This document shows positions 1 through 58,890 of a stretch of DNA of 64,000 nt, one piece after another. A program made the position numbers and the translations under genes. The DNA comes from Mucispirillum schaedleri ASF457 (lineage in GTDB: Bacteria > Chrysiogenota > Deferribacteres > Deferribacterales > Mucispirillaceae): the NCBI RefSeq assembly GCF_000487995.2, contig NZ_CP097562.1, positions 1,671,001 through 1,735,000 of the forward strand. Direction: 5' to 3'. How positions within the stretch are numbered: the stretch's first letter is position 1; each line of letters starts with the position of its first letter. The notes under the pieces are model-generated. The model was not told where the DNA came from. It was given only the letters and a program-made list of their open reading frames with translations, and did no database searches.

Positions 1-1151
1 AAGGCAAAGATGCTAATATAGAATATCTTTTTGAAAAACCTAATATAAAACCACAACTTTTACCAAATGGTAAAGTAAATTATAGAGAGTTTACAAAATT
101 TATCTTTGTAAGTAAAGACCAGCTTATTATAAAACGCACTCCACCAGATAAAGGCATGGATGGCAGAGATATTTCTGGTAATATAATAAAAGCTCAAGAG
201 GGTATAGATAAAAGTGTAGAAGTAGTTGAAGGAGTATACTCTAATTTAGAGAAAACTGAATACCGCTCAAAATATAATGGTCATATAATATTAAGCGGCA
301 ATACAGTAAGTGTTTTGCCTATGCTGCAGGTTAATGGTGATGTAAATATGCATACAGGCAACCTAAGATTTGAGGGGACTATTCAAATTACAGGCAATGT
401 TCAGTCAGGGTTTATTATTGATGCTGATGATATTATAGTAGATGGTATAGTTGAAAATGCTGAATTAAAAGCATCTAATTCTATTATTATAAAAACAGGA
501 GTTAAGGGTATTATCAATAAAGGCTCTATCAAGGCAGGTGGCAATATTTCAGTAGGATACTGTGAAAATGCAAATATTTCTGCAGGCGGCGAGCTAAGTA
601 TTGAGAAATACTGCTTTAATTCAAATATAGAAGCAGCACAGGTTACTGCTCTTGGTAAAGATACAATTATCAGCGGTGGAGTATTAGATATATTTTCTGA
701 ACTGCATGCTACACATTTAGGCTCAAAAAATTCTGGTAAAATGGAAATTAATCTTGGTTATTCACCACTTTTGCAAAATAAGGCAGAGAAAATCAAAGTT
801 GAAATAAATCAGTTAAGCGAATCTATGGAAAAGATAAATGATGTTTTATCAAAATTAAATATCAAGGACCCTAAAATAAAAAGCAATCCAAAAGTAAAAA
901 TGCTGATTGACAGCTCTGATGCTTTTAAACGCAGACTTCCACTGCTTGAAAGAAAGTATAATGATTTAATGCAGAAATCTGTTTGTGATGCACCTAAAAT
1001 AATAGTGGAAGATATAATATATCCTGGTGTTGAAATTAAAATGTTAAATATTTCAAGAAAAATAAAATCAGAAATGAGCCGTGTAGAATTTACATATAAT
1101 GAGATTTCAAGAGAAATAACAAATAAACCTATACAAAATAGAGAAGTATAA
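1..1151 (+). CDS. FapA-like (DUF342) protein, 5' end outside window
   Basis: The reading frame is open from the first bases, so the N-terminus lies outside the window; about 382 residues are visible. The segment PPDKGMDGRDISGN matches the start of the FapA/DUF342 beta-helix domain, in which a proline-rich turn precedes G-x-DGRD-x-x-GN. Regularly spaced Ile/Val/Gly residues follow, as expected for a right-handed beta-helix. The last third is predicted coiled coil (NKAEKIKVEINQLSESMEKI onward). FapA-family proteins are cytoplasmic polymer-forming proteins; some bind or localise motility and signalling partners, but none is established here. It is followed 37 bp later by the ATPase gene and probably shares its transcript. 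The family call is firm, the role is unknown. Confidence 0.75.
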   Translation, partial: GKDANIEYLFEKPNIKPQLLPNGKVNYREFTKFIFVSKDQLIIKRTPPDKGMDGRDISGNIIKAQEGIDKSVEVVEGVYSNLEKTEYRSKYNGHIILSGNTVSVLPMLQVNGDVNMHTGNLRFEGTIQITGNVQSGFIIDADDIIVDGIVENAELKASNSIIIKTGVKGIINKGSIKAGGNISVGYCENANISAGGELSIEKYCFNSNIEAAQVTALGKDTIISGGVLDIFSELHATHLGSKNSGKMEINLGYSPLLQNKAEKIKVEINQLSESMEKINDVLSKLNIKDPKIKSNPKVKMLIDSSDAFKRRLPLLERKYNDLMQKSVCDAPKIIVEDIIYPGVEIKMLNISRKIKSEMSRVEFTYNEISREITNKPIQNREV

Positions 1152-1188
1152 TAGATATATAAAACAGATAGAGGCATACAAGAAAAAA

Positions 1189-2664
1189 ATGAGAACATTT
1201 ACAGAATTTTTTGGCTTTTACCAAGACCCTTTTAAAAGAACTCCTGATGTAGATTTTTACTACCCAACACAAATGCATATAGAGGCATTAGATACTTTAC
1301 AGTATTTAATACATTCTGATGAGCCATTTGCTGTTTTAACAGGGGAGCCCGGCACAGGTAAAACTATTACTATTAAAAAATTTATTAATGAGCTGCCATC
1401 AAATATAGTTTCTGCATATATATTATTTCCAAACCTTACTCCAGAGGAGCTTTTTATGGCAATACTGGAAGATTTTAATATACATGTAGATAAATCACTT
1501 ACTAAAAATGCTCTTTTTGCAAAACTTCGTGATTTTTTAATAGAGATAGGCTCAGAAGGTAAAAAAGCGGTTATTATTATTGATGAGGCACAAAATCTGC
1601 CAAATGAAACTCTGGAAGAACTGCGTCTTTTATCTAATTTGGAAACAGAAAAAGACAAACTTTTAAAAATCATTTTAGCAGGTCAGCCAGAGCTTGATGA
1701 AAAATTAAATGAAGAAAGTTTAAGACAGCTAAAACAGCGTGTAACTTTATATGTTAAACTTGATAATATTAAGCAGGAAGATATAAAAAATTATATTTAT
1801 TCCCACCTTGAAAAAGCTGGTAAAAGTTATGTAAAAATCCACAGTGGAGTTGTTAAGCGTATTGCTAAAATTACAAAAGGTAATCCTAGGCTTATAAATA
1901 CTCTTATGGAAAGAACAATTATTGCTGCTTTTTTAGATAATTCTCATACTATTAATGAAAACCATTTAATAAGTGCATTATCCAGTGTTAATAATGTAAT
2001 GGCAACAGTTCATAAGAAAAAGAGCGGTAAAGCAAAACATACAGTTATTGCAGCAGTTATCGGATGTCTTGCATTATTAGTCGGCTTTTTAGGTGCAGAT
2101 AAAATATTTAATTTAAAAACTGAAAAACCTGCTGCACAAATTGCTGTAAATACTTATACTCCACAGGCAGCAGAAAATACTGCACCAGCAAAGGAATATA
2201 CTGAGAATGCATTAAATAATAATGATATATATACAGATATTACAGCAGAGACCGTGGAAAATAATGCAGCATTAGTGCCAGATAATCAAGAAACTGCAAA
2301 TATTACAGAACAGTATGCTGCAAATAATACAAATCAGCATACTGAAAATATTCAAATAATTCAAACTACACCTTATGTTCCTACGGTTTCGCAAGATGTA
2401 AATAATATTTATCAGGCAGAAGAACAGCCTGTAATAGAAGAACCAGAACCTGTTGTTAATAGACCAAAAGATGTGTATATACTAGCTGATTCTTTAAATG
2501 TGCGTGCAATTCCAAGTCTTGAATCTGCCCGTATTGCATCTGCAACAGTTGGTCAGAAATACGAGTATGTTTCTGAAAATGAAAACTGGGTGCAGATACA
2601 AATTTCACCAATACTTACAGGCTGGGTATTTAAACAGTATGTAAGCATTTCAGAAAGACCATAG
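1189..2664 (+). CDS. ExeA/GspA/MshM-like AAA ATPase with C-terminal SH3 domain
   Basis: 491 residues. An N-terminal AAA domain has Walker A GEPGTGKT at residues 52-59, Walker B VIIIDEAQ near 128-135 and the ExeA-family opening FFGFYQDPF. A single membrane span lies at about 280-300, followed by a long Ala/Asn/Thr/Gln-rich linker and a bacterial SH3 domain (about 425-490, LNVRAIPSLESARIASATVG). This layout matches ExeA/GspA and MshM proteins, which couple cytoplasmic ATP hydrolysis to peptidoglycan-binding modules in secretin or type IV pilus assembly. Here the wall-binding module is SH3 instead of the more usual peptidoglycan_binding_1 domain. No other secretion gene is nearby, so the partner machine is not known. 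Confidence 0.8.
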   Translation: MRTFTEFFGFYQDPFKRTPDVDFYYPTQMHIEALDTLQYLIHSDEPFAVLTGEPGTGKTITIKKFINELPSNIVSAYILFPNLTPEELFMAILEDFNIHVDKSLTKNALFAKLRDFLIEIGSEGKKAVIIIDEAQNLPNETLEELRLLSNLETEKDKLLKIILAGQPELDEKLNEESLRQLKQRVTLYVKLDNIKQEDIKNYIYSHLEKAGKSYVKIHSGVVKRIAKITKGNPRLINTLMERTIIAAFLDNSHTINENHLISALSSVNNVMATVHKKKSGKAKHTVIAAVIGCLALLVGFLGADKIFNLKTEKPAAQIAVNTYTPQAAENTAPAKEYTENALNNNDIYTDITAETVENNAALVPDNQETANITEQYAANNTNQHTENIQIIQTTPYVPTVSQDVNNIYQAEEQPVIEEPEPVVNRPKDVYILADSLNVRAIPSLESARIASATVGQKYEYVSENENWVQIQISPILTGWVFKQYVSISERP

Positions 2665-2673
2665 GGAAATAAA

Positions 2674-4020
2674 ATGAATATTGTTATAGTGGGTGCTGGT
2701 GAAGTCGGCACTCATATTGCATCACAGCTTGTGGCAGAACAAAAAGATGTAGTTATCATAGAAAAAGACCCAGAATGTGCTGCAAAAGCATCTAATATGC
2801 TAGACTGTCTTGTGATAACTGGAGAAGGCTCAAATGTAGATATTCTTAAACAGGCAGGAGCAGAAAATGCAGATATTTTTATTGCTGCTACAAGTGTAGA
2901 TGAAGTAAATATGATATCCTGCTTTGTGGCAGGCAGTGCATTTAATACACCTGTAAAAATAGCCCGTGTAAGAAATGTTGACTATATGCGTGGCGGGCTT
3001 TTAAAAAATTCATCAATTGGTATAGATTACCTTGTAAATCCGGAAATTGAAGCTGCTTTTGATATTGTGCAGACAGTTCTGCATGGTGCATCAAGTGGTA
3101 TATTTGCATTTCAAGGAACAAATGCCCAGCTGCGTGACTTTTTAGTAAAGGATGACAGTATTTTTAACGGAGTATTAGTCAAAGATATACGCTCTATTAT
3201 TGACCAGAATTTTATTATAGCAGGTGTTTTGCGTAATGAAATGCTGCATATTCCAAAAGGTGATTTCCAAATCTTAACAGGTGACCATATATATATTGTT
3301 GCTCTTGGCAAATCTTTTAATAAAATATTAACTCGTGCCGGTATGACTGTTGATAAGCTCAAAAGAATAGTGCTTGTAGGTGGTGGATTAATTGGCAAGC
3401 ATATTGCAGGTATGCTTATTGAAGACGGCAAAGATGTTCGTATTATTGAAAAAGATTATGAAAGGTGCAAGGAGCTTTCTGCTCTTTATCCAGAAGCTAC
3501 TGTTATTAATGGCAATATTTCAGACCAGGATGTATTTGAAGAAGAAAATATTGCTTATACTGATGCCATAATTACAACAACTCAAAGCGAAGAGTTAAAT
3601 ATTCTTGCAGGGGTTTATGCAAAAAGCAAGGGTGTAAAACGAGCTGTAGCATTAATTGATAAATTAAACTATACCACTCTAGCTACAAATTTAGGAATAG
3701 ATTCCTGCATTAGTGCTAAACTTAGTTCAGTAGATGCAATACTTAAATTTATCCGTAAAGGAAATATTAAAAATGTATATACAATATTTGAAGGTCAGGC
3801 AGAAGCTATTGAGTTTATAGTTGGCAGCAGTAATAAGAATATTATAGGCAAAAAAATAATGGATTTAAAATTTCCTTCAGGCTGTCTGATTATTGCAGTG
3901 CAGCGTCATAGAAAAACAATTATTCCAACAGGTTCACTTGTAATAGAAGAAGGGGACAGTATTATTACATTTGCAGCTCATGATGAAATAAGCAGGCTTG
4001 AGGAGCTTTTTAATAAATGA
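2674..4020 (+). CDS. trkA: Trk potassium uptake NAD-binding regulatory subunit TrkA
   Basis: 448 residues with two consecutive RCK (TrkA_N plus TrkA_C) units, as in classical TrkA. The nucleotide-binding loops VGAGEVGTHIA (about residues 6-16) and VGGGLIGKHIAG (about 235-246) each begin a Rossmann fold. TrkA is the cytoplasmic gating ring of the Trk/Ktr potassium channel and binds NAD(H) or ATP. Its stop codon overlaps the start of trkH by 4 bp (ATGA), so the two subunits are translationally coupled. It starts 9 bp after the ATPase gene with a GGGAAA-type ribosome site. Assignment is secure. Confidence 0.95.
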   Translation: MNIVIVGAGEVGTHIASQLVAEQKDVVIIEKDPECAAKASNMLDCLVITGEGSNVDILKQAGAENADIFIAATSVDEVNMISCFVAGSAFNTPVKIARVRNVDYMRGGLLKNSSIGIDYLVNPEIEAAFDIVQTVLHGASSGIFAFQGTNAQLRDFLVKDDSIFNGVLVKDIRSIIDQNFIIAGVLRNEMLHIPKGDFQILTGDHIYIVALGKSFNKILTRAGMTVDKLKRIVLVGGGLIGKHIAGMLIEDGKDVRIIEKDYERCKELSALYPEATVINGNISDQDVFEEENIAYTDAIITTTQSEELNILAGVYAKSKGVKRAVALIDKLNYTTLATNLGIDSCISAKLSSVDAILKFIRKGNIKNVYTIFEGQAEAIEFIVGSSNKNIIGKKIMDLKFPSGCLIIAVQRHRKTIIPTGSLVIEEGDSIITFAAHDEISRLEELFNK

Positions 4021-5507
4021 TACACCAGTTAAGATTAATATTACGACCTATTGTATTTATTAACTTAATACTTTCATGTTTTATGGGTTTTTGTGGTATC
4101 TACGCACTTATTTATAGTGAACATAATGAGGCTGTATCTTTTTTTCAAACAATGGCTGTAATTATTATCTTATCTGCTGTTTTTGCTTTTTTTTCAAAAA
4201 GCAGAGAGAAAAAAAGTATTACAATAAGAAGCGGTTTTGTGCTTGTTGTGTTTATATGGGTGTTTACATGTATTGTTGGTGCACTTCCATATTATGTATC
4301 AGGTGCAATGTCTAATATATATGATGCAATATTTGAATCTGCTTCTGGATTTACAACAGTAGGTGCATCTATTTTGTCAGATATAGAAGGGCTGCCAAAA
4401 TCTATTCTTTTATGGCGGGCAATTTCTCACTGGATGGGTGGTGGCGGAATAATTGTATTATCAGTTGCAATACTTCCACTTTTAGGTATTGGCGGCACCC
4501 ATCTTATGCATGTAGAAACAACAGGTGTTACAAAGGAAAAGCTTACTCCACGCATAACTCAGACTGCAAAATATATATGGATATTATATCTTTCATTAAA
4601 TATTATAGGTATAGTGCTGCTTTCTTATGGCGGAATGAATCTGCTTGATGCTTTTACTCATGCGTCAAGTGCTATTGCAACAGGTGGCTTTTCTAATAAA
4701 AATAATTCAGTTGCATATTTTTCATCAGCATATATTGACTGGGTTTTAACAGTATTTATGTATATTGGCTCACTTAATTTTTTAGTATTAATAAAAACTG
4801 TTCGCGGTAATTTTAAAAGTATAATAAATGATTCTGAAATAAAGTTTTTTACACTGATTATAGTTTTAATATCTGCATTAGTTTCCATTTTCTTATATAT
4901 TCAGCCAAATGGGTTTACTGGAATGGATGGAAAAACTTATACATCTTTATTAGATGCAGTAAGGTTTGGCACATTTCAGGTAGTGTCAGTTATCAGCACA
5001 ACAGGTTATGCAACAGCAGATTATAATTTATGGCACCCAGCTGCTCAAATATTAATATTTGTGCTGTTTTTTATTGGCGGTTCATCTGGCTCTACAAGCG
5101 GTGGTATAAAAGTTATCCGCCATATTATTATGATTAAACAGGCAGTAATAAATATAAAATCTCTCATACATCCAAAAGGTGTTTTTACAATGCGTCTTAA
5201 TGGAAACCCTGTATCTAATAAAGTAGTTATTACTGTTATGGGTTTTATTGTGGTTTATATGGTTACTTTATTTGTCGGTGCATTTATTGTAGCATTAAGC
5301 GGAGTAGTTACACCAACTGAAGCACTTGGTGCAATGCTTGGCTGCCTTGGCACTGTTGGACCCGGTTTTGGAGCATTAGGACCTGCAAGTAATTACGGAT
5401 TTCTGCCAGACTTTGTAAAATTAACTCTTTCTATATCAATGATTATAGGTCGTTTAGAATTATTTACTGTATTTATTCTTTTCAGTCCATGGTTTTGGAA
5501 AAAATGA
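4017..5507 (+). CDS. trkH: Trk potassium uptake transmembrane subunit TrkH
   Basis: 496 residues, highly hydrophobic, with the four pseudo-repeats (M1-P-M2) of the SKT potassium transporters. The four selectivity-filter loops are visible as SGFTTVGAS, AIATGGFS, ISTTGYATAD and GTVGPGFG. A Gly/Ser-rich stretch (GGSSGSTSGGIK) corresponds to the intramembrane gate loop of M2 in repeat 3. It starts inside the trkA stop (ATGA). TrkH forms the pore of the inner-membrane potassium channel regulated by TrkA. Its own stop overlaps the probable hypF start. Confidence 0.95.
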   Translation: MIHQLRLILRPIVFINLILSCFMGFCGIYALIYSEHNEAVSFFQTMAVIIILSAVFAFFSKSREKKSITIRSGFVLVVFIWVFTCIVGALPYYVSGAMSNIYDAIFESASGFTTVGASILSDIEGLPKSILLWRAISHWMGGGGIIVLSVAILPLLGIGGTHLMHVETTGVTKEKLTPRITQTAKYIWILYLSLNIIGIVLLSYGGMNLLDAFTHASSAIATGGFSNKNNSVAYFSSAYIDWVLTVFMYIGSLNFLVLIKTVRGNFKSIINDSEIKFFTLIIVLISALVSIFLYIQPNGFTGMDGKTYTSLLDAVRFGTFQVVSVISTTGYATADYNLWHPAAQILIFVLFFIGGSSGSTSGGIKVIRHIIMIKQAVINIKSLIHPKGVFTMRLNGNPVSNKVVITVMGFIVVYMVTLFVGAFIVALSGVVTPTEALGAMLGCLGTVGPGFGALGPASNYGFLPDFVKLTLSISMIIGRLELFTVFILFSPWFWKK

Positions 5508-7771
5508 TTACACGGCAGATAACAATACAAGGAATAGTGCAGGGAGTAGGGTTTAGACCTTTTATAAAAAATTTAGCAGACAGTATGCAAATAAAAGGCT
5601 CAGTCATCAATACAAGTATGGGAGTTATTATAAAAGCAAACCTTTGGGATGATGAGCTTGATAAGTTTATTATAAAAATAAAGGAAAATGCACCTGCTTT
5701 ATCCCATATTGCAAGTATTGATATAAAAGATATTAAGCATATAGATTATAATAATTTTTCTATTGAAACTTCAAAAGAGTTAGGAGGCATTACTCTTATA
5801 CCGCCAGATATTGCAGTATGTGATGAATGCAGAAGCGAAATTTTAGATATAAGTGAAAGAAGATTTTTCTACCCATTTACTAACTGCACAAACTGCGGAC
5901 CAAGATATTCTATAATTGAAAAACTTCCCTATGACAGATGCAATACTACAATGAAAGATTTTAAAATGTGTGATGACTGTTATGATGAATACACAAATAC
6001 AAGCGATAGAAGATACCATGCTCAGCCTGCAGCATGTGGGGAATGCGGTCCAAAAGTAACCCTTAACTATAAGGGCAGAATAATTGAAAATCAGGAAGAA
6101 GCCTTTAAAAAAACAGCAGATTATATTGATAATGGCGGCATTGTGGCTGTTAAAGGTTTAGGCGGCTATCATTTAATATGCAGTGCAGAAAACGATAGTG
6201 CAGTATTAAAATTAAGGCAGTTAAAAAAACGCAATACTAAGCCTTTTGCAGTTATGGCAGAAAATATTCAGACTATTAAACGATATGCAGTTATTCCAAA
6301 AATTGTGGAAGATACTCTTAAAAGTGCAGAAAGTCCAATAGTTATTTTTGAATGGTTCAGGCGGCCGTTTTCTGATTATGTATCACCTGATTCAAATAAA
6401 ATAGGCATAATGACAGCATATACTCCACTTCATATTATATTATTTCAGTATATGAAAACAAAATTTATTATAGCTACAAGCGGAAACCATAGAGATGAGC
6501 CTATTGCTAAAAATCAGTCAGAAGCAGAAAAAAATTTAAGTGAATTTACTGATGTTTTTCTGCATCACAGCAGGGAAATTTTTCAAAGAGTAGATGACAG
6601 TGTATGTGCATTAGCTGATTATGGCTATATACTTTTCAGGCGGGCAAGGGGCTATGCTCCATATCCTGTTGCACTAAAAAATGATAATCAGGAAGAAATA
6701 TTTGCAGCAGGGGCAAACCTTAAAAGCTCACTGCTCTTTTATAAATCAGGTTTTGCGTTTTTAAGCCAGTATATTGGTGATTTAGACAATATTGAAACAG
6801 AGCAGATGTATGAAGAAGTGCATAATAATATGAAGTCACTTTTTAATATTAACCCATCTGCTGCAATAGTTGATTATCACAGCCAGTATCGCTCTACAGT
6901 TTTTGCAGAAAATAAATATAAAAAAATATATAAAGTGCAGCATCATACCGCCCATTTTGCATCATGTCTTGCAGAAAATTCATATTATGATAATGCAGTA
7001 GGGATAGTTATGGATGGTTTTGGATTAGGGGCAGACAATAAAGCATGGGGTGGGGAAATATTTGTAAAAGAAAAAAATATTATTACAAGATATGCTCATA
7101 TAGAAAATTATATTCAGCCGGGGCTTGATTCTGCTGCTAAAAACCCTGTCCGTATGGTTATATCATACCTTTATACTGAAAATCTGCTTGATAAAATAAT
7201 GGATAAGTTTACATATTCAGGATATACTTGCGAGCAGGAAGTATCACTTATAAAAATGGCAGTTGATAATAGAATAAATTCTATAGAAACAAGTGCAGCA
7301 GGCAGGCTTTTTGAAAGTGCAGGTTCACTTGTTTTAAATAAACGCTCAAATGAATATGAAGGCGAGCTTGCTGTTTTATTTGAAAACTATGCCTGTAAAG
7401 ATATAAAAGAAAGCTATAATTTTTTGTATGAAGATAATAAAATAAAGCTTTCAAAAGTATTTGAAGAAATGGTAGATGATATATTAAATAATCAGGATAT
7501 TAAAATAATTTCATCAAAATTTCATAACGGCTTTGCAAATGTTATATATGATATTTGTGTTGATATTAGGAATAAATTCGGTATTACAGCTGCTGCACTA
7601 TCAGGCGGTGTTATGCAGAATATATTTTTAAGCAGTAAAATATATAATATGCTTACAAAGGATGGTTTTATAGTTCTTACCCATAAAAAAGTCCCTGCAA
7701 ATGATGCTGGCATTGCATTAGGTCAGCTATACTGCTGTCTTAATAATATTATATTAAAAAGTGTAGAATAA
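5504..7771 (+). CDS. hypF: [NiFe]-hydrogenase maturation carbamoyltransferase HypF
   Basis: About 755 residues with the complete HypF domain order. An acylphosphatase domain carries VQGVGFRPF. A double zinc finger has CDEC, CTNCG, CDDC and CGECG pairs. A YrdC-like domain follows, then a Kae1-like domain with the metal-binding histidines in HHTAHFASCL. HypF makes thiocarbamate on HypE from carbamoyl phosphate, the source of the cyanide ligands of the NiFe centre. I chose ATG 5504 (ATGA overlap with trkH) because the acylphosphatase fold begins at once; an in-frame ATG at 5489 is possible. No other hyp gene is present, so the rest of the set must lie elsewhere. Confidence 0.95.
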   Translation: MITRQITIQGIVQGVGFRPFIKNLADSMQIKGSVINTSMGVIIKANLWDDELDKFIIKIKENAPALSHIASIDIKDIKHIDYNNFSIETSKELGGITLIPPDIAVCDECRSEILDISERRFFYPFTNCTNCGPRYSIIEKLPYDRCNTTMKDFKMCDDCYDEYTNTSDRRYHAQPAACGECGPKVTLNYKGRIIENQEEAFKKTADYIDNGGIVAVKGLGGYHLICSAENDSAVLKLRQLKKRNTKPFAVMAENIQTIKRYAVIPKIVEDTLKSAESPIVIFEWFRRPFSDYVSPDSNKIGIMTAYTPLHIILFQYMKTKFIIATSGNHRDEPIAKNQSEAEKNLSEFTDVFLHHSREIFQRVDDSVCALADYGYILFRRARGYAPYPVALKNDNQEEIFAAGANLKSSLLFYKSGFAFLSQYIGDLDNIETEQMYEEVHNNMKSLFNINPSAAIVDYHSQYRSTVFAENKYKKIYKVQHHTAHFASCLAENSYYDNAVGIVMDGFGLGADNKAWGGEIFVKEKNIITRYAHIENYIQPGLDSAAKNPVRMVISYLYTENLLDKIMDKFTYSGYTCEQEVSLIKMAVDNRINSIETSAAGRLFESAGSLVLNKRSNEYEGELAVLFENYACKDIKESYNFLYEDNKIKLSKVFEEMVDDILNNQDIKIISSKFHNGFANVIYDICVDIRNKFGITAAALSGGVMQNIFLSSKIYNMLTKDGFIVLTHKKVPANDAGIALGQLYCCLNNIILKSVE

Positions 7772-7849
7772 TATATACTGTTTAAAGCGGAAATAATTAA
7801 TAAACATCTTTCATTATAGTTTACATTTATTACTTTTTTATTAAACTAC

Positions 7850-7878
7850 TTGTTAAATTTTCCGATATAGTGTATTAT
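7850..7878 (+). promoter_or_regulatory. Predicted sigma-70-type promoter of the DUF4340 gene
   Basis: TTGTTA (7850-7855), 17-bp spacer, TATTAT (7873-7878). Transcription would start near 7885, just ahead of the AAGGAGG ribosome site of the gene at 7901. Seen by consensus match only. Confidence 0.45.
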
Positions 7879-7900
7879 TAAAAAAATCAAGGAGGATTTT

Positions 7901-8764
7901 ATGCTGTGGGCTAATATTGGAATTATTGTTTTAGTGTTAATTTTAGCAAGTATATATTTTCTCCCATACAGAAAGCTTAAAGGAAAAGTTTTTAAAAAAC
8001 TTTTGCCAGATCCGTCAGGCATTACTGCTATGGAATATAGAACAGCGGCATACAGCCTGCAGTTGGAAAAGCGAAACGGAATATGGTATATTATAGATTC
8101 TGACTGGGAAGCAGATAAATCAAGAGTTACAAAATTATTAAACAGACTGCGTGATTTAAATGTTGATGAAAGGATAACAGGGTCTCAAGATGACCCAGAA
8201 TTCAACATTGGCAGTAACGGATATTTAATATTAGATTATGAAGGCAAAATTACTAATATTGCAATAGGAAACAGGGTGGAGCATGACGAAGATTATGTTT
8301 ATATTACAAAATCTGGTGACCCTGATATATTAGTTGTTCATTCGGGTGCATTAAGTCTTCTTTCAAAAGATGGTCAAAGTTTTTCTGATACTGTTATTTT
8401 TGAAGCATATTATCCGCAGATAAAAAGTGTGGAAGCAAGTTTAGGCAGTGATTATTTTACACTGCACTGCACTGAAAATGGCTGGCTGATTGATGGAAAA
8501 AATCTTATAAAAGAAGAAAAAGCACAGACTTTTATAGAAACACTTCTTGCTGCAGAAGCTTTAGGGTTTGTAGAAGATGAAAATATTAAACTTCCGCAAA
8601 GACCAACAGCAACAATTACAATGAAAGTAAACAGACGCAGTGTAATAAGATATTTCTTTGCAATACCAAGCCTGCAGGATAAATTTTTAATGCCTTTAAA
8701 GGGCAGAATACTCTATGTAGAAAAAGATGTGGTAAAACAAATCTTTGCTTTTACAGGCAGATAA
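7901..8764 (+). CDS. DUF4340 domain protein, membrane-anchored
   Basis: 287 residues with one N-terminal membrane span (about residues 5-23) and a short Lys-rich linker. The body resembles DUF4340 (LQLEKRNGIWYIID... then INIGSNGYLILDYEGK-type beta repeats). DUF4340 proteins are often found near ABC-2 and gliding-type export genes, but no such neighbour exists here, so the role is open. A perfect AAGGAGG ribosome site and its own promoter support a single-gene unit between hypF and a repeat-filled gap. Confidence 0.7.
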   Translation: MLWANIGIIVLVLILASIYFLPYRKLKGKVFKKLLPDPSGITAMEYRTAAYSLQLEKRNGIWYIIDSDWEADKSRVTKLLNRLRDLNVDERITGSQDDPEFNIGSNGYLILDYEGKITNIAIGNRVEHDEDYVYITKSGDPDILVVHSGALSLLSKDGQSFSDTVIFEAYYPQIKSVEASLGSDYFTLHCTENGWLIDGKNLIKEEKAQTFIETLLAAEALGFVEDENIKLPQRPTATITMKVNRRSVIRYFFAIPSLQDKFLMPLKGRILYVEKDVVKQIFAFTGR

Positions 8765-8829
8765 TTTCGTTTTTATTATAGTTTATAAAGTGGATTAGTC
8801 TAATTTTTTGGATAAATTCAGTATCTTAT

Positions 8830-9070
8830 CTATCCTTTATTTTCAAATTTTATCCAGCTACGGACTTTTGATTCCATCGCTACTCGCTCGGAAAGTCCTT
8901 GCGTCGCAAAAACGGGGTCTTGCCCATGTTAATGGCAAGCTGTTTTCTATACTCGGAGCGGAGCGTAGTAAAAGATGCTCCCCATGAATTTGAAAAAATA
9001 CGCTTGGTCGCAGTAAATGCTCCCGTCACTTTCGCTATGCGACGGGACTTCCTGTCCCTACATTGTCTTG
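8830..9070. repeat. Dispersed 240-bp repeat R1, copy a
   Basis: Closely similar to 20630-20855. Shared landmarks in order: TATCCTTTATT, TCCAGCT, AAAGTCCTTGC, TCGCAAAAACGGGGTCTTG, the hairpin CTTGCC-CAT-TTAAT-GGCAAG, TATACTCGGAGCGGAGC, then GGACTTCCTG. It is richer in GC than its surroundings. Small open frames on both strands run through it but have no ribosome site and are not frame-conserved between copies, so I treat it as non-coding. Each copy is followed directly by a copy of the palindromic repeat R2. Confidence 0.7.
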
Positions 9071-31475: not shown

Positions 31476-32321
31476 ATGAGAAAATTTGTATATTTGTTAT
31501 TAATATTTGTAACAGCATGCGGCGGAGATACTGGTTTAGATGACAGCTCATCTTCAAATGCCTCAGGGTTATATGCTGCACCAATCTTAGATGGTGATTA
31601 TGTTGAAAAACCTGCAACAAGCATAGTTATTAATGTAGACGGGGGGGGGTATACACCAGATAATACATTAATAGAGCTTTCTCCAAATAAACCTGTATTT
31701 GTTGAAGCTGTATTACAGCCTGTTTCAGTGAAAAATGCTTCTTTTTTTGAAAGTATAAGTATGCAGAAAAAAAGTTTTATTGCAACATCATCATGCCATA
31801 CAAGTCTGTATAATGGCAAGTGTCAAACTTCTTTTGTGTATAAGCCGCACTGCAGTGGAGTTGATGCTACATATATTAAGTTACAGGCAGATAAAAGTGC
31901 ACCTGTAATATTAACAGTGACAGGTCATTCAGATGGTTTTAAAGATAACTGTTCTAAATATCAGCTTGATAATATAACATTAAGTGCAGAAAAATCAGGC
32001 CATCGTTTTACATATTCTGGTGAAATATTTTATTTTACAGTAAAAGCTGATAAAGATATACCAGACGGATTTTCATACAGCACAAATGGTGCATTAAATG
32101 GATTTTATTATTCGTATTCCTGCTTTTCAAATGACAATACCTGCTCTGGCTTTGCACAGTTTTTAGGAAAGGTTGGAAAGCATGAATGTAAAGGCGAAAC
32201 AACTGTCTCTTTTAAAATATTTGCAGACCCATTTAACTCAAAAGGTCATACTCCAGCTGCTATCACTCTTTATGGTGCAGGAACTGGAAGAGATGAAAAA
32301 TATCCCTGCCAAATGAAATAA
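31476..32321 (+). CDS. Lipoprotein with in-frame G9 tract, unknown function
   Basis: 281 residues. Signal peptide and lipobox ending VTAC at residue 15, then a Ser-rich linker. Several paired Cys residues suggest disulfides in an exported domain. I recognise no family. Codons 56-58 are GGG GGG GGG (31641-31649), a nine-G run that is extreme for this base composition. Slippage by one base would truncate the protein, so its expression may be phase variable; the sequence here is the in-frame (ON) state. Confidence 0.65.
   Translation: MRKFVYLLLIFVTACGGDTGLDDSSSSNASGLYAAPILDGDYVEKPATSIVINVDGGGYTPDNTLIELSPNKPVFVEAVLQPVSVKNASFFESISMQKKSFIATSSCHTSLYNGKCQTSFVYKPHCSGVDATYIKLQADKSAPVILTVTGHSDGFKDNCSKYQLDNITLSAEKSGHRFTYSGEIFYFTVKADKDIPDGFSYSTNGALNGFYYSYSCFSNDNTCSGFAQFLGKVGKHECKGETTVSFKIFADPFNSKGHTPAAITLYGAGTGRDEKYPCQMK
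31641..31649 (+). repeat. Homopolymeric G9 tract inside a lipoprotein gene
   Basis: Nine consecutive G residues encoding Gly-Gly-Gly. Tracts of this kind drive slipped-strand phase variation in Campylobacter and Helicobacter. Confidence 0.8.
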
Positions 32322-37874: not shown

Positions 37875-38693
37875 AGCACGAAAAGAATAGTAAAAAATAG
37901 TAGTAAATTTATGCGATTTCACATATAGTGTATAAAAAAATATGTAACATGTATTTAAAAAGATAAATCATTAATAATATTACATAAAAATAGATAAAGA
38001 TTAAAAATAAATGTGTATCTAATACGATTATTCAAATAAATATTTGGCAGGCTCAATATGTGTGAACAGACTGGGATAATGCTTCAATAGAAATTTTCGA
38101 ACATACAGTAGAAGAATATATACCATACATTAAACCTAGATAATTTGCAGTATAAAGCCTCTATATGCAGGCTATTTTTTTGAAGATGCTGCAATATTCA
38201 ACCCCCGCACCCATGTTTGAGAAGATGCTCCCGCTCCTTGCCTTTTCTTCCCCAACAACTCGTAAAAAAATAATTATTTTATAAATTATTAATCTAACCA
38301 AACAAATATAAAAACACCATACCAACACAAACAAAATATAAAACAAAGCTGCACAATGCATTAATATTAAAATTCAATAATAAGCCAAACAATTTCATAT
38401 AATAATAGATTAACCAAACTATTTTAAAATAAATGCTGCTGCATTGCATTTTTTTTTGCAAAAATTATACATTTCCTGCGGGCTTCACTCCCGCACGGCA
38501 ATTTTTAGTACAGAAAGAACCTATTGAGGAAATTTAGCAGTGATTTTTACTGCTAACTTCCAACTGGGGGGGGCATGGGGCTTGCTCTGTTTTTGAGAAA
38601 AATGTAAGAAACTGTGTAGATATATGTAATAAAAATAAGTGTAATTTAAGTGTAATTATATAATTAGAATACATTGTTTACTGCACTAGATGC
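37875..38693. other. Decayed interval with gene relics, a terminator and a G8 tract
   Basis: No intact gene. 38069-38143 encodes a 24-residue C-terminal-like fragment DWDNASIEIFEHTVEEYIPY... ending in a stop and followed by a terminator. A GCGGG / CCCGC hairpin lies near 38478-38494 and a G8 tract at 38566-38573. Two tandem copies of TAAGTGTAATT lie at about 38637-38659, close to tRNA-Arg, possible integrase arm sites. The open frames here have no homology or ribosome sites. Confidence 0.5.
38156..38181 (+). terminator. Small terminator after the 38.07-kb gene relic
   Basis: AGCCT / AGGCT stem, loop CTATATGC, followed by seven T residues. Confidence 0.55.
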
Positions 38694-38718: not shown

Positions 38719-38727
38719 ATTAAGAAA

Positions 38728-38801
38728 TGCCCCTGACAGGAATTGAACCTGTGGCCTGCGGATTAGGAATCCGTCGCTCTATCCAACTGAGCTACAGAGG
38801 C
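38728..38801 (-). tRNA. tRNA-Arg (CCT anticodon)
   Basis: 74 nt. Acceptor GCCTCTG / CAGGGGC (one T-G pair) plus discriminator A; D-arm AGCTCAGTTGGATAGAGC; anticodon loop TTCCTAA gives CCT; T-loop GGTTCAATTCC. A single-copy tRNA of this kind is a common integration site. The adjacent integrase lies on its 5' side, which is the less usual geometry. Confidence 0.96.
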
Positions 38802-38854
38802 AGATTACATCTGATTATTTTATATTAGAAAAACTTAATACAAGTATTATATGA

Positions 38855-39784
38855 TTAAGCTTTATTAGAACTTCTATTTATAAAGCATAATTTATTGCTT
38901 GCGTCAAGCTCTTTTTTGCTATCATTTGCTAAATATCGCTCTGTCATTGCAATAGAGCTGTGTCCTAACATGTGCTGTATGACTTTAATATTGGTGCCAT
39001 TATGCAAAAGAGTTGTAGCAAAAGTTCTTCTTAAATCATGAAATCTAAAATATTTAATATCTGCCTGCTTTAATGCACTTTTAAAAGACCTTTTTACTTC
39101 TTTTGTTTTAAATACATATTCACCATTATCATATTCAAGCATATATTTATTTAATTCATCAAGCAAGTCTTGATGCAAACATATAAGCTGTCCCTTACCT
39201 GACTTTGTTTCACAGCCATCAAGCTGGTAAATATTACCTTGAATGTTTGATTTTTTCATATTTACTATATTGCTGTATCTCATACCAGTATATAATGCTG
39301 CTAACACTATGTAATAAAGCTCTTTATTCTTACTTTTTTTACAGGCTTCAAGTAGTGCATTCACTTCAAATTCATTTAATGCCCTGTTTCTGCTTTCTTC
39401 TTTATATTTTTTTATATATTTTACTGGATTTTCTTTTATCAGTTTATCTTTAATTGCAGTATTAAATATATGGCTTAAACAAGAACGATAACGATTTTGA
39501 GTAGCCTGTGTAATCTTTCTATCCTTTTTTAAAAGGTTAAAGAAATTAACAATATCATTTTCTGTTATATCAAAAATTGCTTTTTTTACAAATGTATAGC
39601 TTGTAATTATTTTTAATTTGCCTAAGATATCCCTAAAATTTCTTTCTGTCTTGGAATTTCTTTGAAAAGGAATATAAGTATCATTAATATACCTTTCTAA
39701 TGTGATTTTTTCATTATCTGTATTATCAGACATTAATACAGATGTTAATTCATTGATTTGTTTTAAGATTTCTGATTTTGTCAT
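38855..39784 (-). CDS. int: Tyrosine recombinase/integrase of the conjugative element
   Basis: 309 residues. An N-terminal SAM-like core-binding domain is followed by the catalytic domain with Arg in YTGMRYSNI, HDLRRTFA (HxxR), HMLGHSSI (second His) and nucleophile Tyr in TERYL. It is encoded 53 bp from tRNA-Arg and points at it, as expected for an island integrase. The ribosome site AAGGAG is enclosed by a 9-bp hairpin (39794-39823), which may limit translation. Related to the relic at 37126. Confidence 0.93.
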   Translation of the reverse strand: MTKSEILKQINELTSVLMSDNTDNEKITLERYINDTYIPFQRNSKTERNFRDILGKLKIITSYTFVKKAIFDITENDIVNFFNLLKKDRKITQATQNRYRSCLSHIFNTAIKDKLIKENPVKYIKKYKEESRNRALNEFEVNALLEACKKSKNKELYYIVLAALYTGMRYSNIVNMKKSNIQGNIYQLDGCETKSGKGQLICLHQDLLDELNKYMLEYDNGEYVFKTKEVKRSFKSALKQADIKYFRFHDLRRTFATTLLHNGTNIKVIQHMLGHSSIAMTERYLANDSKKELDASNKLCFINRSSNKA

Positions 39785-39793
39785 AGTGTGTCT

Positions 39794-39823
39794 CCTTGCT
39801 GTTTTTTGCTAAATACAGCAAGG
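39794..39823 (-). promoter_or_regulatory. Hairpin enclosing the int ribosome binding site
   Basis: CCTTGCTGT / ACAGCAAGG perfect 9-bp stem with a 12-nt loop. On the minus strand the right arm ends in AGCAAGG, which overlaps the int Shine-Dalgarno AAGGAG. There is no T run, so it is not a simple terminator. Confidence 0.5.
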
Positions 39824-39838
39824 AAATTACCACATAGA

Positions 39839-40303
39839 CTAAAATACCAAATACATAATAAGCAGCGAAAGAATAATATTACCAGCAAGTAATAATTTTA
39901 CATAAAAATTGCTTGTGATAAACATATTATTTTTTTCTTCATTAGCTTTGCTTAATTTATTTATTTTATCAGCAATAAAGTATAAAGTTTCCTGCACTTT
40001 TTCATCAGTTGATATTTTAATTTCATTAGTTAGGAATTGCACTTTTGAAAGAAATTCTTTATCATCTTCAATTTTTTTATTATCTAAATAGGCTTTAAAT
40101 TCATCAATCACATCTCTTTGCTGCTGTCCTGCATTATCTATCCTATTATCAAGTTCTTCTGCATATTCTTTAAAGACATATTTTGCAATAGTATAAAACA
40201 TTAGAACAGGGTCATTATTTTCAATAATGGATTCATTATTTAAAGCAATAGTTTTGATTAATTCTTCAAACTCTGCATCATCAATTTTATATATTTTACT
40301 CAT
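39839..40303 (-). CDS. Tail-anchored hypothetical protein of the element
   Basis: 154 residues, mostly helical and charged with coiled-coil character, ending in one membrane span (about residues 132-153, VKLLLAGNIILSLLIMYLVF). The start is ATG 40303 behind AAAGGTGA; a GTG 9 bp upstream is less likely. It lies between the parAB operon and int. No recognised family; a membrane-tethered partner for partition or transfer is speculative. Confidence 0.5.
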   Translation of the reverse strand: MSKIYKIDDAEFEELIKTIALNNESIIENNDPVLMFYTIAKYVFKEYAEELDNRIDNAGQQQRDVIDEFKAYLDNKKIEDDKEFLSKVQFLTNEIKISTDEKVQETLYFIADKINKLSKANEEKNNMFITSNFYVKLLLAGNIILSLLIMYLVF

Positions 40304-40353
40304 TATCTTCACCTTTGATTTAATAATTTTATTCTTTCAACACTTCCATCAGC

Positions 40354-40569
40354 CTATATTAGCTCTGAATATGTAGAAAGCATAACATCTTTGAAAAAGT
40401 CAATTCCTCCATCTTTTAATTCTTTTTCAAGCAATTTTAAAATTTCGTGCAGTGCAGCATTATGCATAAAAATCAAGCTGCTTATATCACCATTAATTTT
40501 AGAATATACCTTTTTATTTTTATCAATTATTACTCTTAATTCTGCATAATTATTATGATTATTTCTCAT
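40354..40569 (-). CDS. Small hypothetical protein overlapping parB
   Basis: 71 residues starting MRNNHNNYAELRVIIDKNKK. Its ATG lies inside the last codons of parB (ATGAGAAATAA), indicating translational coupling in the parA-parB operon. The N-terminal beta strands and amphipathic C-terminal helix do not identify a family. Confidence 0.5.
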   Translation of the reverse strand: MRNNHNNYAELRVIIDKNKKVYSKINGDISSLIFMHNAALHEILKLLEKELKDGGIDFFKDVMLSTYSELI

Positions 40570-41629
40570 TTTGAACTCGTATCTTATACACAAATTTAAG
40601 CATATCTGAAAGTTTATTATTTTCAAAAAGATATCTATATAATTCATCTGATAGCATAATTAAAATCTTATCATCAGAATTACAAATATTTTTTGTATAT
40701 AAATCAAGATAAATATCTTTATACCACATTTGTCTATTTTCTTTCATATTCTGCTTATTAGAAGTCTTTTTTATTGATGTATCTATGTTATCTATATTTT
40801 CAGTAATTCCTATTTCATATGCATTAAAATGATTTTCAGCAATATCATTATCATCTTTTTCATTAGTTTCTAATTCTTGAACTATTTCATTGATATTAGT
40901 CTCTGCTAGTTCATCTAAATAATCTCCAATATTTGGTCTAGCTAAATCTTCATCTGTAATAATAGATTTATTATCATCATTGGATAAGTTATTTAATTTC
41001 TCAATAATATTTCTACTAATATTATCAATACTTTTAATATAATCAAGTGCTGCTGCATATATATCTGGCTCTGCATTATTGAGAAATTTATTAATTTCTA
41101 CAATTAAAGTAATATCTTTTGTTTTTGGAGTAAGCAGTTCTTTAATATAATTATCAATTTTTGCATAATTATAGTATAATGTAATGTATGAGTTACTTTT
41201 AGATAATGATTTAGCAATATCTTTCTTTTTCTTTTTTTGAACATCAATCAAATATTTGATAGTTTCTGCTATTTCATCAAAATTCAGCTCTTGTCTTTGC
41301 ACATTTTCTACCAGTTGCTTTTCAAATATGTCTTCAAAATTAGTATTAACTATGACAGCAGGTATTGATTTTAATCCTGCCTGTTTAGCTGCTCTAAATC
41401 GTCGTTCTCCATAACAAATTCTATAAACATTATCATTTTTAAATAATGTTATAGGTGAAAGCACTCCATGCAGTCTGATTGATTCTGCTAAATCATCTAT
41501 ATTATCAAATATTTTTCTTGGCTGGGTAGGGTCAATTTCAATTTTATCTAAATCTATTTCCTGAAATTTTTCTTCATTAGCATTCATTAGTAAATCACTT
41601 GTTTTTTTAATATCTTTTAAAAAATCCAT
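40559..41629 (-). CDS. parB: ParB/KorB-like partition and regulatory protein
   Basis: 356 residues. The ParB/Spo0J core is clear: IEIDPTQPRKIFD, SIRLHGVLSPITLF, CYGERRFRAAKQAG (CTP-binding C-motif region) and ENVQRQELNFDEIA, then a helix-turn-helix (KKKKDIAKSLSKSNSYITLY). ParB proteins are CTP-dependent clamps loaded at palindromic sites; RK2 KorB is a member that also represses transfer genes. Six KorB-like operator palindromes near this element make a KorB-type dual role plausible. It starts 11 bp behind parA with ribosome site AAGGGG. Confidence 0.88.
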   Translation of the reverse strand: MDFLKDIKKTSDLLMNANEEKFQEIDLDKIEIDPTQPRKIFDNIDDLAESIRLHGVLSPITLFKNDNVYRICYGERRFRAAKQAGLKSIPAVIVNTNFEDIFEKQLVENVQRQELNFDEIAETIKYLIDVQKKKKKDIAKSLSKSNSYITLYYNYAKIDNYIKELLTPKTKDITLIVEINKFLNNAEPDIYAAALDYIKSIDNISRNIIEKLNNLSNDDNKSIITDEDLARPNIGDYLDELAETNINEIVQELETNEKDDNDIAENHFNAYEIGITENIDNIDTSIKKTSNKQNMKENRQMWYKDIYLDLYTKNICNSDDKILIMLSDELYRYLFENNKLSDMLKFVYKIRVQNEK

Positions 41630-41640
41630 ATAATTACCCC

Positions 41641-42375
41641 TTACATTTTTGCATATATTGTGTCAAATACATTAATTAATTCTTTTTTATGTTTTGAATT
41701 ACTTTTAAAGAAAGAAGTCTGGCTTGCACTAGCATTTGCTAAATCATTTCTATATTTAATAAATGGCAAAAATAAATCCTGACCATATTCAGAGTATAGT
41801 TTTTCTAAATTTTTACTTTGCCTTTTATTTGTAGTAATTACACGAGAAGGCAGCACACCAAGAAAAGACATATCATTATTTCTATTTTTTTTGATATTGA
41901 ATATAGTATTAAGCATTAGAGATAAGCCTTGTAATGAATATATTTCAAGCTCAATAGGAGTTATTACATAATTTGATAACTCAAGTGAATATATAAGTTT
42001 ATTAGACAGCACAGGTGCAGTATCTATAAGAATATAATCAAATAAAGTATATAAATATTTTAGATTTTGCAGATAGTTAATAGAGTTATCAAATTCATTT
42101 TCATTTGATAAATCAATAGTAGATTTGAAAAGATTTATTTCATCTTTTTTTATTCCAGAAATTTTAGCCGCTAAAATATTTACATCATCAGTAAAAAGTG
42201 AATAAGTATCGCCAATAATATTAGCATTACATAATGAGTATGAACAATTAGCTTGAGTATCTGTATCAATAACTAATACAGATTTATTTTTAAAATCCTT
42301 TAAATAATAAGCAAAATTAATTAAAAAAGTAGTCTTGCCAACGCCACCTTTTTGGTTTGCAACAGTAAATATCAT
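41641..42375 (-). CDS. parA: ParA partition ATPase
   Basis: 244 residues. Deviant Walker A QKGGVGKTT at residues 8-16, A' motif VIDTDTQANCSYS and Walker B ILIDTAPVL. No N-terminal DNA-binding extension, so it is the type Ib/Soj/IncC-short kind. It segregates ParB-bound DNA over the nucleoid, useful while the excised element replicates. One KorB-type operator (42163-42175) lies within the coding sequence, over codons for LAAK. Confidence 0.93.
   Translation of the reverse strand: MIFTVANQKGGVGKTTFLINFAYYLKDFKNKSVLVIDTDTQANCSYSLCNANIIGDTYSLFTDDVNILAAKISGIKKDEINLFKSTIDLSNENEFDNSINYLQNLKYLYTLFDYILIDTAPVLSNKLIYSLELSNYVITPIELEIYSLQGLSLMLNTIFNIKKNRNNDMSFLGVLPSRVITTNKRQSKNLEKLYSEYGQDLFLPFIKYRNDLANASASQTSFFKSNSKHKKELINVFDTIYAKM
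42163..42175. promoter_or_regulatory. KorB-type operator site 2, TTTAGCCGCTAAA, inside parA
   Basis: Exact match to the RK2 KorB consensus TTTAGCSGCTAAA; within the parA reading frame, so it could also act as a partition site. Confidence 0.65.
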
Positions 42376-58080: not shown

Positions 58081-58108
58081 CAGGAGGCTGGTTTTTACCA
58101 GCCTCCTG
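58081..58108 (-). terminator. Hairpin overlapping the stop codon of the 58.1-kb lipoprotein gene
   Basis: Perfect stem ACAGGAGGCTGGT / ACCAGCCTCCTGT with a 4-nt loop; on the minus strand it runs into GTTTTTAATT. The TAA stop of the minus-strand gene sits at the loop, so its last codons form the terminator. Confidence 0.75.
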
Positions 58109-58787
58109 TACCATACATTCTATTAAAACATATTTCTTTTATGCATTGCGAATCATCTGGATAATCTATTATTAAATCTCCAAAAATTCTTTGACCTAGA
58201 TACTCTTGCATTAAATTAGTAATATTTGCAGATATTATATTAAACTCTATAGACCCTTTTTGATAAGTTGATTGTTTATAATTTTGTAATTCCATATTAT
58301 TTGCGAGTACTATTTTGTATTTTACATTATTATCAATGTTTTGTAATTTGATAAAAAAATAAGATTCTGCATCCATAAATAAATAATCTTGAAAGTAATC
58401 TATTAGTAACATATCACAATTTTGATTTAGATTTTCTGGAACTGGTTTTAAAACAATTTTTTCACCACATTGCATATTATTATAATAAAAAACTATATCT
58501 TTTTCACCTGAAACTGAATTTTTATTAAATTCTAATAATGGTTCTAGATTGTCAGATTTTATATTTGGTTCTCTTAATGATTGCCACCTTATACTACCAG
58601 CATACTGTCTTTTGCTTTCATCATTTAACTTTATTTTATACTGATTTTGTTTCACTCTTTCATAAGTAAAATCAGCTGATGTTATAGGACAGGTTTCAGT
58701 AACTCCATCGCCATTACTTCCGCTTTCATCAGAACAGCCAACTACTACAAATATAACACCAAATAATAAAAATAACAATTTTTTCAT
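58095..58787 (-). CDS. Lipoprotein of the element, possible entry-exclusion factor
   Basis: 230 residues. Signal peptide with lipobox VVGC (Cys 18), Ser/Gly linker, then an exported domain with about eight Cys. No family recognised. Entry-exclusion proteins in conjugative elements (for example TrbK) are often lipoproteins beside the transfer genes, and no trbK is present, so that role is possible but unproved. Its promoter region has a KorB-type site (58838-58850) and, further up, a 9-bp G/C tract. Confidence 0.55.
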   Translation of the reverse strand: MKKLLFLLFGVIFVVVGCSDESGSNGDGVTETCPITSADFTYERVKQNQYKIKLNDESKRQYAGSIRWQSLREPNIKSDNLEPLLEFNKNSVSGEKDIVFYYNNMQCGEKIVLKPVPENLNQNCDMLLIDYFQDYLFMDAESYFFIKLQNIDNNVKYKIVLANNMELQNYKQSTYQKGSIEFNIISANITNLMQEYLGQRIFGDLIIDYPDDSQCIKEICFNRMYGTGGW

Positions 58788-58881: not shown

Positions 58882-58890
58882 GGGGGGGGG
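58882..58890 (+). repeat. Homopolymeric G9 tract in an intergenic region
   Basis: Nine G residues between the vapD gene end and the promoter of the lipoprotein gene. Length changes could alter promoter spacing. Confidence 0.75.

Follow-up and report, generated by a model that had tools for sequence, protein, structure and literature searches.

Slipped-strand mispairing is the standard mechanism by which homopolymeric tracts change in length. In Neisseria porA and Bordetella fim, the homopolymer lies between the -35 and -10 hexamers, where tract length sets their spacing. Phase variation through G or C tracts is known from Campylobacter and Helicobacter. In the PhasomeIt survey of Campylobacter, 53% of tracts were G9 and 26% were G10 (PMC6321876), while poly-G/C phase variation in Helicobacter is represented by H. 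canadensis (PMC2823697). Two further reports concern respiration. The dmsEFABGH genes of Shewanella serve extracellular DMSO/iodate respiration (PMC11302344), and an uncharacterized DMSO-reductase-like system of Mucispirillum schaedleri was reported to be upregulated in inflammation (PMC5285517). Here, we describe a G9 tract in a lipoprotein gene of M. schaedleri and compare it with these systems.

Results

We analyzed a 64-kb stretch of DNA (the window), which spans positions 1671001 to 1735000 of a genome that consists of a single contig of 2,347,083 bp. Features of the window are numbered from its first base and all others by genome position. The locus has the following features:

31476..32321, + strand: 281-aa lipoprotein gene; family restricted to Mucispirillum among 40 relatives, with no Pfam family
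31476..31520, + strand: signal peptide with lipobox VTAC and Cys at codon 15, from the sequence and a lipobox pattern match
31617..32318, + strand: predicted folded beta domain, residues ~48 to 281, from a structure model (mean pLDDT 72, 8-sequence alignment)
31641..31649, + strand: G9 tract, codons 56 to 58, Gly-Gly-Gly; proposed slippage switch, currently ON

An earlier note on this DNA had reported three runs of eight or nine G in a window of roughly 30% GC and had placed one of them, as an in-frame Gly-Gly-Gly, in the lipoprotein gene. Both observations were confirmed. The GC content is 30.5%, and exactly three runs of at least six G or C occur in the window (G9 at 31641 to 31649, G8 at 38566 to 38573, and G9 at 58882 to 58890), with none of length 6 or 7 in the 64 kb. 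Exactly 55 codons of the open reading frame precede the first of these tracts and 223 follow it. Past the tract, frame translation of the other two frames reached a stop after 3 and 6 codons. The claim that a slip would truncate the protein thus stood, with early stops in both frames; the length computed from the frames for a one-base slip is ~62 to 64 residues, close to the ~58 that had been given. Judged by this consequence for the frame, a change in tract length would switch expression of the lipoprotein on or off. In the structure model, a disordered N-terminus (residues 1 to 45) is followed by the beta domain, and the tract falls in a turn near the domain start, a position from which a slip would be predicted to remove nearly the entire folded domain. 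We found no meaningful PDB sequence match for the protein, and a fold search returned only low-quality beta-sandwich matches (TM ~0.25). A promoter scan around the gene was uninformative (9 sites versus 6.3 in shuffled sequences).

To place the tract in its genomic context, we counted G/C runs across the whole contig. There were 84 runs of at least 6, 54 of at least 7, and 49 of at least 8. The exact lengths were bimodal with a peak at 9 (length 6, n = 30; 7, n = 5; 8, n = 6; 9, n = 33; 10, n = 8; 11, n = 2). Against the 49 observed runs of at least 8, a decay model fitted to shorter runs predicts ~0.5 per genome and an order-1 model ~2.3, and the three G runs of this size in the window compare with 0.04 to 0.19 expected under order-1 to order-4 Markov models. 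The G9 at 31641 is therefore a repeat beyond chance, of a length (at least 8 G) that is hypermutable. The spread of tracts along the chromosome is uneven: positions 616 to 585472 (585 kb) lack a G/C run of at least 8, and 48 tracts are distributed across the rest.

Similar tracts occur in related genomes. Other Mucispirillum genomes carry 18 to 43 each, apart from a single genome of 57% completeness, which has 2. Counts are 1 to 5 in one sister genus, 73 in another, 1 to 18 in most of the remaining order, and 28 to 74 in some members of one family (f4). Phasomes seem to have been gained or lost repeatedly within the order. We also noted that four order relatives (G011, G017, G024, and G037) have 28 to 74 poly-G tracts and that near neighbors have few. 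Some sequencing methods err on homopolymer lengths, and a chance run or an artifact of base calling or assembly would on that account be conceivable at 31641. We find this explanation scarcely credible, given how few runs are expected per window or per genome and that independently assembled relatives show the same enrichment, together with the promoter design described below.

From the sequence retrieved around each of them, the 49 tracts were sorted into 29 coding tracts, ~9 poly-C tracts in promoter spacers, and 2 tracts at ribosome-binding sites. The remainder comprise one at a gene boundary (1451584), the possible promoter tract at window position 58882, and seven without a clear target; one of these seven lies downstream of tsf, in a hairpin that resembles a terminator. 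Near the target-less tracts 1250658, 1517590, and 1921193, we observed a motif (CATTTTGAGCCTG and similar sequences) that recurs between genes.

Among the coding tracts, 23 genes were ON and 6 were OFF. Each OFF gene is frameshifted exactly at the tract, and an open frame of 192 to 1117 codons follows; intact downstream frames, some of more than 1,000 codons, argue against old pseudogenes. The affected genes belong to classes typical of phase variation. They encode PKD and Big_2 lipoproteins, MBOAT acyltransferases, GT2 and GT9 glycosyltransferases, sulfatase-domain proteins, ATP-grasp proteins, HsdS, a histidine kinase, an M66/TagA-like lipoprotein, a MucB/RseB-like protein, and DmsA-like reductases. 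As in the window gene, the tract follows a lipobox and short linker in an OFF lipoprotein gene at 1050366 and in the reductases. The HsdS gene, for a type I restriction specificity subunit, is OFF with a G8 at 680945, and its orthologs carry G9; this tract could possibly give phase-variable methylation. The M66/TagA-like lipoprotein at 1558496 has a ricin-B-type lectin domain and a poly-C tract in mid-gene, and is ON.

Other tracts lie upstream of genes, in two arrangements:

863224, 1217443, 1327554, 1567066, 1791300, 1805189, 1933216, and 1982866: poly-C spacer promoters, near consensus, mostly before lipoprotein genes
843007 (chemoreceptor gene, G10) and 2307925 (T6SS VgrG gene, G9): ribosome-binding-site tracts

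In the first arrangement, the poly-C runs of the ~9 tracts separate near-consensus TTGACA and TATAAT-like hexamers; tract 1921193 has a poor -10. Lipoprotein genes lie downstream of 6 of the 9, and one such gene is also frameshifted within its signal peptide. Ten of 40 genomes contained a strict version of the pattern, with 35 occurrences between them, versus one occurrence of a reversed control; nine of the ten are Mucispirillum and the other belongs to a sister genus. The spacer was 15 bp in 25 of the 35 promoters. Many of them have TGA before TATAAT, which could act as an extended -10.

A recurrent coding target is a set of five-gene operons:

~1-9000, 1005500-1014400, 1061500-1070700, and 2270700-2280500: respiratory operons, each with a G9 at the junction between the signal and catalytic parts of the reductase

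Each of the four operons has genes for a DmsA-like TAT protein that carries a lipobox-like Cys, a ferredoxin resembling DmsB, a chaperone resembling TorD, a barrel-like protein of 513 aa, and a cytochrome with five CxxCH motifs (pentaheme, not ten). The reductase gene is OFF in three and ON in one. The reductase genes have their first 47 codons and the tract in common. Identities are 33 to 42% between catalytic subunits, 96 to 99.8% between barrels, and 98 to 100% between cytochromes. A fifth copy of the barrel gene carries its own G9 (1548466). The catalytic subunits gave molybdopterin and TAT matches, and their matches to the dmsA/dmsB families fell below curated cutoffs; on this basis they are predicted to be of DmsA/DmsB type and exported by TAT. 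The 513-aa protein resembles an outer-membrane barrel, with a weak structure model (pLDDT 53). The poly-G tracts appear to control whole respiratory operons.

We then compared tract length and state between species, using assemblies of two relatives and reductase loci from others, a comparison among species and not within a population. A tract was found at the orthologous position at ~11 loci, and several differed in length (8, 9, or 10), including the G8 versus G9 of the HsdS gene and G10 versus G9 at the 1451584 boundary. Reductase orthologs were the clearest case, with G8, G9, and G10 and both ON and OFF states. In the 1014143 group, whose bodies are 85 to 98% identical, G9 left the gene OFF in three species and G10 left it ON in a fourth (G009). 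In the 2270982 group, two genes were ON and two OFF. A search of viral contigs for within-species tract variation found nothing.

These differences bear on the possibility that the tracts act during expression, through transcriptional slippage or programmed frameshifting that would give every cell a mixture of products with no heritable switching. Homopolymer runs can make polymerase or ribosome slip, and the intact downstream frames of the OFF genes would also fit recovery of the frame in this way. However, tracts in promoter spacers cannot operate so, the ortholog lengths differ in the DNA itself, and the usual substrates for such slippage are poly-A/T runs. We consider this account highly improbable. 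Phase variation of the tract class, as read from sequence comparison, is well supported, and it is the best reading of the G9 at 31641 because that tract belongs to the genome-wide set that peaks at 9. For this tract itself, we infer phase variation from its membership in the class.

The homologs of the window lipoprotein allow a different view of its tract. The family is present in 8 of 10 Mucispirillum genomes and nowhere else among the 40 relatives, and the seven homologs are 41 to 74% identical. A tract conserved across the family was rejected: none of the seven has a G run at this site or a Gly there. The G9 is therefore not a conserved switch, and this lineage either gained or retained it. 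The same sites without a tract would fit a fixed linker of three Gly where the folded domain begins, one that stays constant even should other tracts switch. The G9 is in frame with the gene ON, and Gly would be tolerated in the turn predicted by the structure model. Yet no homolog has the Gly, and GGG accounts for 8.6% of Gly codons, which makes a series of three unlikely through codon choice. The tract also has the very length, 9, at which a class with demonstrated ON/OFF differences peaks genome-wide. We regard a stable linker as unlikely and retain slippage-based switching as the preferred reading.

The other two tracts in the window lie outside genes:

38566..38573, + strand: G8 tract, intergenic, near an integrase gene and tRNA-Arg
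58882..58890, - strand: read as G9 on the + strand and as poly-C in the gene sense; a lipoprotein gene begins 95 bp further on
58095..58787, - strand: lipoprotein gene (230 aa) that follows the 58882 tract

We looked for a target gene for the G8 tract and found none. By its sequence, the tract at 58882 is a possible promoter-spacer tract, with weak hexamers (TTGCAT and TATACA) that fall outside the good promoter matches. The stretch from 38727 to 42375 and onward has a tRNA-Arg and, after it, genes for an integrase and for ParA/ParB-like proteins. The region from 38727 onward is probably an integrative element, which may hold the 58882 tract.

Discussion

We think it probable that the G9 at 31641 is a contingency tract, one of the loci that make up a genome-wide poly-G/poly-C phasome, and that it switches the lipoprotein reversibly. 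Slipped-strand mispairing during replication would add or remove one G, and the shifted frame would run into a stop within 3 to 6 codons. Cells would then alternate between the full lipoprotein (G9, ON) and an N-terminal fragment of ~62 to 64 residues. We infer the slippage rate, the reversibility, the surface display, and the population variation of this tract. Across the phasome, switching would take three routes: change of reading frame, change of -35/-10 spacer length, and change at ribosome-binding-site tracts. Loss of mismatch repair was rejected as a cause as far as MutS is concerned. MutS1 is intact in this genome, so slippage is not raised through its loss. Intact MutS1 is likewise a feature of other bacteria that phase-vary, Neisseria among them.

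The suggestion in the earlier note that phase variation was likely is supported by the genome-wide class of 49, the OFF genes at tracts, and the differences between orthologs. The count that it had proposed of runs of at least 8 gave 49 against the 0.5 to 2.3 expected, and the gene classes included lipoproteins, enzymes of glycan modification (glycosyltransferases and O-acyltransferases), HsdS, VgrG, a chemoreceptor, and reductases. Its parallel with epsilonproteobacteria was right about mechanism; the organism belongs to a different lineage, the Deferribacterota.

For the respiratory operons, we lean slightly toward the view that Mucispirillum phase-varies anaerobic respiration, with random tract changes setting the terminal reductase of each cell and hence a stochastic repertoire of electron acceptors in gut mucus. 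Under this proposal, a conserved TAT-lipoprotein leader would be joined through a poly-G switch to a diverged DmsA/DmsB/TorD-like core, and the opposite end would hold barrel and cytochrome genes that are nearly identical between operons. The terminal reductase chosen by tract state would possibly be located on the outer surface.

Our literature searches turned up no account of phase-variable genes in Mucispirillum or elsewhere in its phylum, nor of control of respiratory operons by such tracts in Mucispirillum. The kind of switch is an established one; its occurrence in this phylum and its respiratory targets appear to be new. Mucispirillum is a core symbiont of mouse-gut mucus and is used in defined mouse communities. 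If it has a phasome the size of that in Campylobacter, clonal inocula would be phenotypically mixed, and respiratory enzymes would join the list of phase-variable targets.

The closest parallel is with Campylobacter and Helicobacter, which share with Mucispirillum a similar number of G/C tracts per genome, many and mostly within reading frames, a peak at 9, surface and glycan genes as targets, and mixed ON/OFF states. Mucispirillum differs from them in its phylum, in its recurrent poly-C promoter-spacer design, in the respiratory reductase operons among its targets, and in being described here at the level of sequence only. Its poly-C tracts lie between -35 and -10 hexamers, as in porA and fim; unlike those promoters, ~9 per genome follow a common near-consensus design, and most spacers are 15 bp as assembled. 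Like dmsEFABGH of Shewanella, its reductase operons combine DmsA- and DmsB-like subunits, a TorD-like chaperone, a barrel-like protein, at most a candidate counterpart of the MtrB/DmsF-type barrel, and a multiheme cytochrome. In contrast to the Shewanella operon, they have a poly-G tract at the signal/catalytic junction and five CxxCH motifs instead of the ten of a decaheme DmsE, and they occur in several copies that have diverged from one another except in the barrel and cytochrome genes, which are nearly identical.
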